A DNA stretch of 64,000 bases. Origin: Armatimonadota bacterium. GTDB taxonomy: Bacteria; Armatimonadota; HRBIN16. The position numbers and the translations under genes are program-made. The stretch spans positions 1 through 64,000 of the forward strand of contig BPGT01000002.1 in the NCBI GenBank assembly GCA_026003175.1. Reading direction: 5' to 3'. The notes beneath the pieces were generated by a model that did no database searches, was not told the origin of the DNA, and saw only the letters and a program-made list of their open reading frames with translations. This document shows, piece by piece, positions 1-59,917 of this stretch. The first letter of the stretch is position 1; each line of letters begins with the position of its first letter.

Positions 1-47
1 CACTCGTAATGCGTAGGTCGGCGGTTCGAATCCGCCCGTCGGCTCCA
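1..47 (+). tRNA. tRNA-Thr(CGT), 3' part only
   Basis: This is the 3' part of a tRNA cut by the window edge. Visible are an anticodon loop CTCGTAA (bases 3-9, anticodon CGT at 5-7), a 5-bp T stem closing TTCGAAT, the 3' acceptor strand CGTCGGC, and an encoded CCA at 45-47. Anticodon CGT reads Thr. The gene lies next to a leftward-pointing integrase, the usual arrangement for a tRNA used as an integration site. The 5' half is outside the window, so it cannot be shown to be intact. Confidence 0.85.
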
Positions 48-19296: not shown

Positions 19297-20418
<1,122 letters not shown>

Positions 20419-56864: not shown

Positions 56865-57667
56865 GCCGAATCGCCGAGCGTTTCACGGCTCTGCACCAGA
56901 CGGGCGAAGGCGCGTTGGTGGTATTCGTCACTGCGGGCGATCCGAATCCCGAATGGAGCGAAAAGCTGGTGCTGACCATTGCCGAAGCCGGGGCGGATAT
57001 TATCGAAATCGGTGTTCCCTTCAGTGACCCGCTGGCGGACGGTCCCACTATCCAGTCCTCCACCTTCCGCGCCCTGCAGCAAGGCGTCACTCCCGTATCC
57101 GTACTGGAGATGATAGCCCGCGTGCGCTCGCGAAGCGATGTGCCTCTGGTGGTGATGACCTACTTCAACCCCGTGTGGCAGATGGGGGTAGAGCGATTTG
57201 CCCGAGAGGCAAGCGAGGCAGGTGTGGACGGTGTCATCATGACTGATATGCCCCCCGATGAGGCAGGAGATTGGCATCCCGTCGCGCGTCGATACGGGCT
57301 GGATACCATCTTTCTGATTGCACCGACCAGTACTCCAGAGCGCATGAGGCTGGTGGCGCAAATGAGCAGTGGATTCGTGTACTGTGTCTCGCGCACGGGC
57401 GTCACAGGCGCACGCGAGCACCTGCCGGAAGAGGTGCCGCAGATGTTACAGGCGATGCGCCAGCTCACCAGACTGCCTCTATGCGTGGGCTTCGGCATCT
57501 CGCGTCCTGAGCATGTGCAAGCGGTATGCCGCATCGCTGAGGGAGCAGTGGTGGGTAGCGCGGTGGTGTCGCTGATTGCACAAGAGGTGGAGAAAGGCGA
57601 GCAAGCAGTGCTGTTGGCGGTGCGTCGCTTTGTGAGAGACCTGAAAGAGGCAGCGAGAGCAAAATGA
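56861..57667 (+). CDS. trpA: Tryptophan synthase alpha chain
   Basis: TrpA cleaves indole-3-glycerol phosphate and channels indole to TrpB. It has 268 residues. The catalytic Glu is in [17 protein letters not shown], and the same motif contains the catalytic Asp. The phosphate loop is [10 protein letters not shown]. The ATG overlaps the trpB stop as ATGA. Confidence 0.97.
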
Positions 57668-58443
57668 GCTTGCGTCTTTTTATCTTTGACTTAGACGGTG
57701 TCATCTATCGTGGTGAGGAGCCGATGCCCTGCGCAGTGGAGACGGTGCAGCGCCTGCGCGAAGAGGGCAAGCTGGTGCGCTTTCTCACCAACAACTCCGC
57801 GCTGACGCGGGAGGCATATGTGCGTCGCCTGAGCGGAATGGGTATCCCCTGCGAGGAGGAGGATTTTATGACCTCCGCCTATGCCACAGCGATTTATCTG
57901 CAGTCTCAAGGAGCAGAGGACAAGCGGGTATTCATCGTGGGTGAGGAAGGCATCCACGAGGAGCTGCGACGCATCGGCATGAGAGTGGTCACCGACCCCG
58001 AGGAGGAGGGGGCGGACTATGTGGTAGCAGGTATCGACCGCGACTTCACCTACGACAAGCTGCGCAGGGCGCACTATGCTATCCAGCACGGTGCACGCTT
58101 CATCGCCACGAACCGTGACGCCACCTACCCGGCTTCGGGTGGAAGGATTGTACCCGGCGGGGGGGCGATTGTGGCAGCTATCGCCACCTGCACGGGGGTA
58201 GAGCCTCTGGTCATCGGCAAGCCCAATACCTATATCATGGAGCTGCTATTGCAAAGATGTGACGTTTCTCCGCATGAGGCGGTGCTAATAGGTGACCGGC
58301 TGGATACCGATGTGCTGGTAGGCAAGCGCGCGGGCTTGCATACGGTGCTGGTGCTGACAGGAGTGACGGATGCCGATTCGTTACGCTCTGTGCCTGAAGA
58401 GATGTTGCCGGAAAGGGTAATACGCACTCTGGCAGAGCTGTAA
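57664..58443 (+). CDS. HAD-superfamily IIA phosphatase (NagD/phosphoglycolate phosphatase-like)
   Basis: This 259-residue protein starts FIFDLDGVIYRGEEPMP (motif I, nucleophile Asp), followed by RFLTNNSA (motif II), an IIA-type cap, GKPNTYIMELLL and the metal site VLIGDRLDTDV. The substrate is probably a small phosphorylated metabolite. It overlaps trpA as ATGA and ends the trp operon. A plausible but unproven role is removal of a toxic phosphorylated intermediate. Confidence 0.9.
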   Translation: MSLRLFIFDLDGVIYRGEEPMPCAVETVQRLREEGKLVRFLTNNSALTREAYVRRLSGMGIPCEEEDFMTSAYATAIYLQSQGAEDKRVFIVGEEGIHEELRRIGMRVVTDPEEEGADYVVAGIDRDFTYDKLRRAHYAIQHGARFIATNRDATYPASGGRIVPGGGAIVAAIATCTGVEPLVIGKPNTYIMELLLQRCDVSPHEAVLIGDRLDTDVLVGKRAGLHTVLVLTGVTDADSLRSVPEEMLPERVIRTLAEL

Positions 58444-58546
58444 GAAAAACGCCCCTCTGTCCGGGGGTGGAAACAGAGGGGCAGAGCTTCCTGTCGTTTG
58501 CTGGAGGGCGCTCGCAGGAAGCACCATGTTGTTGCTCCAGGTTGGT
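58444..58546 (-). ncRNA. Candidate stand-alone small RNA with H-type pseudoknot and terminator
   Basis: On the minus strand, a promoter (TTGATT 58581-58576, 17-bp spacer, TATGAT 58558-58553) predicts a start near 58546. About 100 nt later there is a 10-bp stem (58482-58473 with 58460-58451) followed by GTTTTTC. Between them two helices interleave: CTGGAG (58540-58535) with CTCCAG (58506-58501), and GCTTCCTG (58522-58515) with CAGGAAGC (58493-58486). The order a-b-a'-b' is an H-type pseudoknot. No short ORF fits inside, since the frame from the only ATG runs through the terminator. No known RNA family was recognised, and it has no downstream gene. Confidence 0.7.
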
Positions 58547-58581
58547 GGTTTCATCATACCACAATATGCATCAAAAATCAA

Positions 58582-58858
58582 TACTTTTTTGTATACACTT
58601 TTTGAAAAGCAGGAGAAAAACGCGGCTTGCGTTAATACTATCGCAGGCGCAGGCTGCTTGCCATTATGAGCGGAACGAAGAATGACAAGCGAGCCAACCT
58701 TCCTGCCAATATCGAGGTAACCCTTGTAGCCGCGGGCTTTCGCCTGCGCCACAGGCATACAGAAGAACGCACAAGCGGAACCGCTCTGCTTACGTCCAAA
58801 TAATCGCGTGTGGCAGAGTAAGACACTACCTGACATCACAACATAAGAGGGGAAGAAG
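58582..58858. other. Intergenic region with degenerate intergenic repeats
   Basis: No gene is supported. The stretch at about 58640-58760 resembles fragments of common dispersed repeats (GCCGCGGGCTTTCGCCTGCG; a GAACGAAGAATGACAAGCG core). GAGGGGAAG just before 58859 is the ribosome site of the next gene. Confidence 0.45.
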
Positions 58859-59917
58859 ATGAGCAGAAAGGTAAAAACACCGATAGGGATTGGCATTATC
58901 GGCAGTGGAGGCATCGCGCAAGCCGCACACATGCCGGGCTACGCGGCTTACCCTGACCTGTGCCGCATTGTGGCGGTGGCGGATATTAACCCTGAGGTCG
59001 CCAAAGCCGCTGCCGAGAAGTTCAACGTACCGCATGTTTTCACCGACTACCGAGACCTGTTGAAGCTGAAAGAGGTAGATGCGGTGAGCGTCTGCACGCC
59101 CAACTATCTGCACAAACAGCCCACCATCGACGCGTTGGAAGCGGGCAAGCATGTGCTGGTGGAGAAGCCGATGGCGATGAACGCGCAGGAAGGGCGCGAG
59201 ATGTTAGCGGCGGCAAAGCGCACGGGTAAAAAGCTGCAGGTCGCGCTGAACATGCGATTCAGCACGGGTGTGCGTACTATCAAGCGGTTCATCGACGCAG
59301 GCAAGCTGGGCGAGATTTACTATGCCCGGGCGCAAGCGCTGCGCCGAAGGGGCATCCCCGGCTGGGGGGTGTTCACCCAGAAGGATAAGCAGGGTGGAGG
59401 ACCGCTCATCGATATCGGCGTGCACATTCTGGATGCGACATTGTTTTTCATGGGGCATCCGAAGCCGGTGTCGGTCAGCGGGATGACCTACACCAAGTTT
59501 GGCACGCGCGAGGGCGTTGTGGGCTTGATGGGGCAGTGGGACCCCAAGACCTACACCGTAGAAGACTTCGCGGTGGGGCTGGTGCGCTTCGAGAACGACG
59601 CCACACTGGTGATCGAGTCCAGCTTCTGCGCCAATATCGAGCATGACATTTTCAACACCACCATCCTGGGCACGGAAGGCGGGGCGCAGCTCAACCCGCT
59701 CAAGCTCTTCCGCGAGGAAGAGCAGACGCTTCTGGACATTACGCCCTTTGGGCTGCGTGAAGTGAACAGCCACCAGCAGGAGGTGTACGCCTTCCTGCAG
59801 GCGATAGTCAACGACACCGAGCCAGAGGTCACTGCCGAGCAGGGTCTGATGGCGACCGAGATTATCGACGCCATCTATGCTTCGGCGGAGACCGGCAAAG
59901 AGGTTGTGCTGAGGTAA
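58859..59917 (+). CDS. Gfo/Idh/MocA-family NAD(P)-dependent oxidoreductase
   Basis: This 352-residue protein has an N-terminal Rossmann domain (IGIGIIGSGGIAQAAHMPGY) and the family's EKPMAMNAQEGREML motif with the conserved Lys. The active-site region GGGPLIDIGVHILDATLFFM has the conserved Asp and His. The substrate is probably a sugar, inositol or their derivative. It is followed after 14 nt by an MFS transporter, suggesting uptake and oxidation of one compound. Confidence 0.92.
   Translation: MSRKVKTPIGIGIIGSGGIAQAAHMPGYAAYPDLCRIVAVADINPEVAKAAAEKFNVPHVFTDYRDLLKLKEVDAVSVCTPNYLHKQPTIDALEAGKHVLVEKPMAMNAQEGREMLAAAKRTGKKLQVALNMRFSTGVRTIKRFIDAGKLGEIYYARAQALRRRGIPGWGVFTQKDKQGGGPLIDIGVHILDATLFFMGHPKPVSVSGMTYTKFGTREGVVGLMGQWDPKTYTVEDFAVGLVRFENDATLVIESSFCANIEHDIFNTTILGTEGGAQLNPLKLFREEEQTLLDITPFGLREVNSHQQEVYAFLQAIVNDTEPEVTAEQGLMATEIIDAIYASAETGKEVVLR

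Follow-up and report, generated by a model that had tools for sequence, protein, structure and literature searches.

A predicted genus-wide small RNA of Armatimonadota with conserved complementarity to the unlinked mRNA of a 38-aa peptide

The window analysed here is a 64,000-nucleotide (64-kb) stretch of genome G000, from an Armatimonadota bacterium of HRBIN16, a class name in use for this phylum (PMC11788075). The window opens on the 3′ part of a tRNA gene (positions 1-44, plus strand; Rfam tRNA, 29.4 bits), which is cut by the window start. Further along, trpF, trpB and trpA, identified by reading, are followed by a HAD-IIA phosphatase gene (57664-58443). Tail-to-tail with the latter lies a minus-strand unit whose end coincides with the HAD stop codon in every genome. 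The first-pass annotation had given the trp operon as the tail-to-tail neighbour; the orientation was correct, and the neighbour is the phosphatase gene that comes after the trp genes rather than a trp gene itself. The same annotation had stated that no gene follows and that the unit is not a cis-riboswitch; both statements hold, the first for the minus strand within the unit. The features of the unit are as follows.

58582..58625, minus strand: upstream element TCTCCTGC.......GTATACAAAAA, beyond the −35 box, both parts kept in 9 of 9 genomes
58553..58581, minus strand: sigma-70 type promoter TTGATT-17-TATGAT with TG before the −10 box, from the sequence and 9 of 9 genomes
58445..58546, minus strand: small RNA (sRNA) of about 102 nt with predicted ends, present in 10 of 10 genus genomes; this strand folds better than its shuffles (z −4.1)
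58523..58542, minus strand: pairing block 1, ACCUGGAGCAACAACAUGGU, antisense to codons ~5-12 of the target ORF
58503..58514, minus strand: pairing block 2, CGAGCGCCCUCC, antisense to GGAGGUCGCUCG of the target mRNA
58486..58522, minus strand: helix 2 hairpin of the minimum free energy (MFE) fold, with arms GCUUCCUG (58522-58515) and CAGGAAGC (58493-58486)
58444..58482, minus strand: intrinsic terminator, a GC-rich hairpin GCCCCUCUG/CAGAGGGGC with U-run, its stem paired in 97.5% of cells across nine species

The promoter match alone was at chance level (1 found against 1.3 expected in 3 kb), and relatives were therefore compared. When 101 genomes were searched with the DNA sequence, each of the nine other genus genomes proved to carry the unit, which is thus present in 10 of 10, beside the same HAD gene and with E-values from 2.6e-59 to 1.5e-8; the copy in G007 ends early at a contig end. 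Outside the genus, this search gave no credible match (best E-value 0.016). The alignment showed conservation of the −35 and −10 boxes, the upstream element, two internal blocks and the terminator. The −35 TTGAYT and the −10 TATNAT were kept in all nine genomes that hold the promoter part, and the promoter of G004 reads TTGACT-17-TATAAT. The promoter (58581-58553) and the GC-rich terminator with T-run (58482-58444) read in the first pass therefore both exist and are conserved in relatives. Judged by this comparison, the locus is a real minus-strand unit, genus-wide, for a predicted small RNA of about 100 bases starting near 58546. The upstream element (58582-58625) may be a regulator site, serving either the sRNA or the divergent GFO_IDH_MocA gene at 58859. 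Its part GTATACAAAAA has only two occurrences genome-wide, and a regulon search with it returned one other site and was uninformative.

A phylum-wide family was rejected, the RNA being strongly conserved within one genus only. The spread of the sRNA was judged by DNA search, and the conserved feature is the pairing blocks rather than the fold. Two further matches in G000 were set aside: the one at G000:C3:357091 was attributed to chance, as a sense identity inside an apparent coding sequence that is absent in relatives, and the one at G000:C6:13760 lies outside the RNA, involving query bases 6-27 upstream of it. Neither the sRNA nor the peptide introduced below matched a described RNA or protein family (Rfam; Pfam, NCBIfam and PADLOC). 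At both gathering and permissive thresholds, Rfam assigned the sRNA to no family, in agreement with its initial description as new, and a search of the target locus returned nothing. Sub-threshold matches of 16-20 bits were obtained to sX13 (RF02232), anti-hemB (RF02837) and Rhizobiales-2 (RF01723). Their likeness comes mostly from the layout of hairpin plus terminator, and the sRNA falls far below their gathering scores of 40-50 bits.

The unit is almost certainly not the gene of a small protein starting at an AUG at 58527 with GGAG upstream. The arrangement GGAG-N7-AUG does recur in eight of the nine genomes read, with GUG in G006. However, the frame lacks a stop before the terminator in eight of nine species, meets a stop at codon 9 in G004 and is shifted in G001, and residues after codon 6 are poorly conserved. 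The sRNA body was accordingly rejected as coding sequence on frame and residue conservation. A plus-strand reading at the same place (MLLLQVGG... after GGAGG) was also rejected, its frame being unconserved with early stops in G004 and G002.

A second site in the same genome, G000:C6:19840, carries GGAGCAACAACATGG and CGAGCGACCTCC in the sense of the sRNA. Its opposite strand reads GGAGGTCGCTCGTA-GTG-AAATACTGGCTTACCATGTTGTTGCTCCTGGT, that is, a Shine-Dalgarno sequence, a GTG start and early codons, and belongs to the following gene.

G000:C6:19757-19870, minus strand: 38-aa ORF MKYWLTMLLLLVVWATTYGAKLEIYPPPKPPPPPSASY, with a GTG or TTG start

The ORF was found in nine of ten genus genomes and was not found in G008 (80% complete); it occurred in none of the 281 other genomes of the phylum searched. 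Across codons 2-32, 23 codons vary synonymously and one varies in its amino acid, and because of this pattern the ORF is a genuine protein gene under strong selection. The near-invariant, membrane-type peptide has one hydrophobic stretch (~L5-Y18, by inspection) and a proline-rich tail. Its gene appears to form an operon with HD-domain genes and lies between an upstream gene for a 227-aa protein of no known family and a gene whose HD-domain (HD-GYP-like) product has a MASE9 region. As neither a promoter nor a terminator of its own could be assigned, the gene may be transcribed together with the upstream gene. A 5′-3′ stem, GAGCCUGUUG/CAACAGGCUC, encloses the whole ORF. In the consensus of the target mRNA, a double change was seen in 5 of 69 pairs, and the overall covariation term was near zero.

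The complementarity between sRNA and target is conserved and lies at the translation initiation region of an mRNA encoded elsewhere. Block 1 faces codons ~5-12 and block 2 faces GGAGG plus the next seven bases, so that the two are collinear and antiparallel in the order needed for one bipartite duplex. In a joint alignment of the eight sRNA/mRNA pairs from genomes holding both parts, all of one genus, standard pairs filled 93.3% of 255 cells (95.0% in block 1 over the eight genomes, 90.5% in block 2), against 33-55% when the partners were slid by 1-3 columns. Most species show one mismatched position per block (U:U and C:U), and G006 has lost several block 2 pairs. Two compensatory double changes were observed, which are few. 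In block 1 of G005, the sRNA changes A to G and the mRNA U to C, turning A-U into G-C, and the mRNA change is synonymous in the peptide (leucine UUG to CUG). In block 2 of G001, the sRNA changes C to U and the mRNA G to A, turning C-G into U-A. Two such pairs were reached by 8 of 500 shuffles, a control that leaves relatedness in. A further sRNA change in G005 (U to A) closes the U:U mismatch common elsewhere. Furthermore, at least 20 of the 21 codons past the pairing block vary synonymously, whereas codons 6, 8 and 11 inside the block do not, these being small numbers.

These observations bear on whether the unit is a cis-antisense RNA directed at the 3′ end of the mRNA from the trp-HAD operon. 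Its position at the HAD stop codon in every genome would suit such a role, as would the plus strand, which lacks a T-run after the shared hairpin, so that a read-through mRNA would be antisense to the sRNA. Nevertheless, any RNA at that place would be antisense to read-through, and the joint conservation and changes of the two blocks with an unlinked mRNA would be left unexplained. Cis-antisense action is thus quite unlikely, and the trp operon, whose 3′ end had been suggested as a possible target, is not supported as the likely one. The suggestion of a trans-acting RNA, made at the same time, fits the conserved complementarity to an unlinked mRNA. The remark that there is no target gene stands in cis and fails in trans, where an unlinked peptide mRNA is complementary to both conserved blocks.

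An exact search of G000 for the 14-mer GGAGCARCAACATG gave just two places, the sRNA and, on the antisense strand, the target. When the perfect 16-mer complement was sought with up to two mismatches in the genus genomes covered, the sRNA locus and this ORF were again the only places to recur, and a one-base variant in G005 is shared by both. When the sRNAs of G001 and G005 were each tried against eight targets, the cognate one came out best. The predicted duplex energy in G000 was −75 kcal/mol, compared with −40 (sd 7) for 3652 window tiles, and no tile outside the sRNA's own locus reached −75 kcal/mol; this background is the 64-kb window rather than the full transcriptome. Against shuffled sRNAs, the cognate duplex scored z of about −7 to −8, and in each of three genomes not one of 1000 shuffles equalled it. 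After opening costs were paid, the two-block duplex was still favourable at −13 to −25 kcal/mol in eight of eight genomes. A nested full-length co-fold, however, predicted no duplex for five of the eight pairs because the mRNA folds on itself; pairing within the closed 5′-3′ stem is beyond what that algorithm can represent. This result is a caution, as the sRNA may have less access to the mRNA in its closed form.

The very stable duplex would also suit a sponge role, in which the structured 270-nt transcript that contains the peptide gene titrates the sRNA off other targets; the 5′ part of this transcript is strongly folded and almost invariant. But no other conserved site complementary to block 1 with up to two mismatches recurs across the genus, the ORF is under protein-level selection and the pairing covers the Shine-Dalgarno region, which makes a sponge very unlikely.

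The complementarity to the mRNA also accounts for much of the H-type pseudoknot that had been drawn from 6-bp and 8-bp helices. Both helices are drawable in G000, and helix 2 is the better kept, with 86% of cells paired in nine species. Helix 1 (CUGGAG/CUCCAG) shows zero compensatory changes in nine sequences; its outer pair is broken in four of the nine species and its second pair in two, and it is lost in G006. The MFE fold of the sRNA forms helix 2, with block 2 in its loop, and the terminator, and leaves helix 1 absent; since nested folding cannot show a pseudoknot, the proper test is the comparison between species. In the predicted duplex, the GGAG of block 1 lies opposite CUCC in the target ORF, and the CCUCC of block 2 opposite the GGAGG Shine-Dalgarno of the target mRNA. 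The helix 1 arms match one another as a consequence of the GGAG...CUCC in the mRNA, and this complementarity needs no selection of its own. The pseudoknot is therefore not supported by the sequence comparison and appears to be mostly a by-product. With helix 1 also uncovarying and no Rfam match near any gathering score, it is highly improbable that the unit is a structured pseudoknot RNA, that is, a ligand-binding RNA or protein-binding decoy, defined by helices 1 and 2. The conservation proposed as a check on the helices was strong for the RNA in one genus; it did not extend across the phylum or to covariation in helix 1.

The most probable explanation is that the unit encodes a trans-encoded base-pairing sRNA acting on the unlinked 38-aa peptide mRNA and blocking its translation. 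The basis for a base-pairing sRNA is conservation, complementarity, compensatory changes and location. The RNA would be transcribed from the minus-strand promoter to the terminator, and its blocks would pair in cells with the early codons and Shine-Dalgarno of the peptide mRNA. The resulting bipartite duplex would occlude the Shine-Dalgarno and stop 30S binding, and peptide translation would be repressed. Hfq, whose gene is present in the genome (E = 1.3e-28), and RNase III would perhaps assist.

An independent unit with its own promoter and intrinsic terminator, as is characteristic of trans-encoded sRNAs, is indicated here by sequence and conservation. The sRNA is like those of the RyhB, MicA and IsrR type in this respect, in its length of ~100 nt, in complementing an unlinked mRNA at its ribosome-binding site and early codons, and in having two seed regions and Hfq in the genome. 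It differs from them in its unusually long pairing (32 positions in two blocks, mostly paired), in having what is apparently a single conserved target, and in belonging to an uncultured Armatimonadota lineage.

There is also a likeness to hok/Sok and aapA/IsoA, in which an RNA pairs at the start region of a short hydrophobic-peptide mRNA with a strong 5′-3′ fold (PMC6733600). As a special case of the trans-acting explanation, the two genes could be an unlinked type I toxin-antitoxin-like pair, with a growth-inhibiting peptide and the sRNA as its antitoxin. The peptide is small, near-invariant and, with its one hydrophobic stretch, of the short hydrophobic kind; both genes are confined to the same genus; and the compact, highly structured mRNA has a terminal stem and some covarying pairs, as in the hok and aapA mRNAs (PMC6733600). 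Type I pairs, however, overlap or adjoin, which is a defining feature, whereas in each genome that has the two genes, the sRNA and the peptide are encoded on separate contigs. The G004 sRNA is ~516 kb from the nearest end of its contig and the target is on another contig, which puts the two at least about that far apart. The peptide gene also differs from those of hok/Sok and aapA/IsoA in lying within an apparent operon of HD-domain genes and encoding a proline-rich tail, and the peptide has no PADLOC, NCBIfam or Pfam match. That tail is not a known feature of such toxins. Such a pair is unlikely, and there is only a modest chance of a split type I toxin-antitoxin-like system, in which an antitoxin-like sRNA hundreds of kilobases from the structured mRNA of a small membrane peptide co-evolves with it through two blocks, the peptide being tied to an HD-domain signalling operon.

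We know of no earlier report from Armatimonadota of a regulatory sRNA whose target is identified, and none was found in a full-text literature search. The target of the proposed trans-acting sRNA was predicted here from co-variation between unlinked genes, with unusual clarity for an uncultured lineage, and is therefore directly testable in a laboratory host with a two-plasmid reporter though the organism is uncultured. The prediction also brings to light a 38-aa peptide, near-invariant and of no known family, whose gene lies beside HD-domain signalling genes.

Two observations concern the surroundings of the peptide gene (locus L050). At G000:C6 ~19,710-19,980 (minus strand), a near-invariant 5′ UTR hairpin, GUGUCUGUUCGCUUAGCGGCGCGAACGGAACAC, accompanies the 5′-3′ closing stem, and the peptide-ORF mRNA could by itself act as a structured regulatory element. 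The conserved 227-aa protein (L050:5997-6680, minus strand; no Pfam or NCBIfam family) resembles by eye, in its C-terminal part, the end of a GGDEF-like protein at L050:42-1157 (VRNDLNRAVVNAVLDALNR / VRENVQRAAVNALLHALNR).
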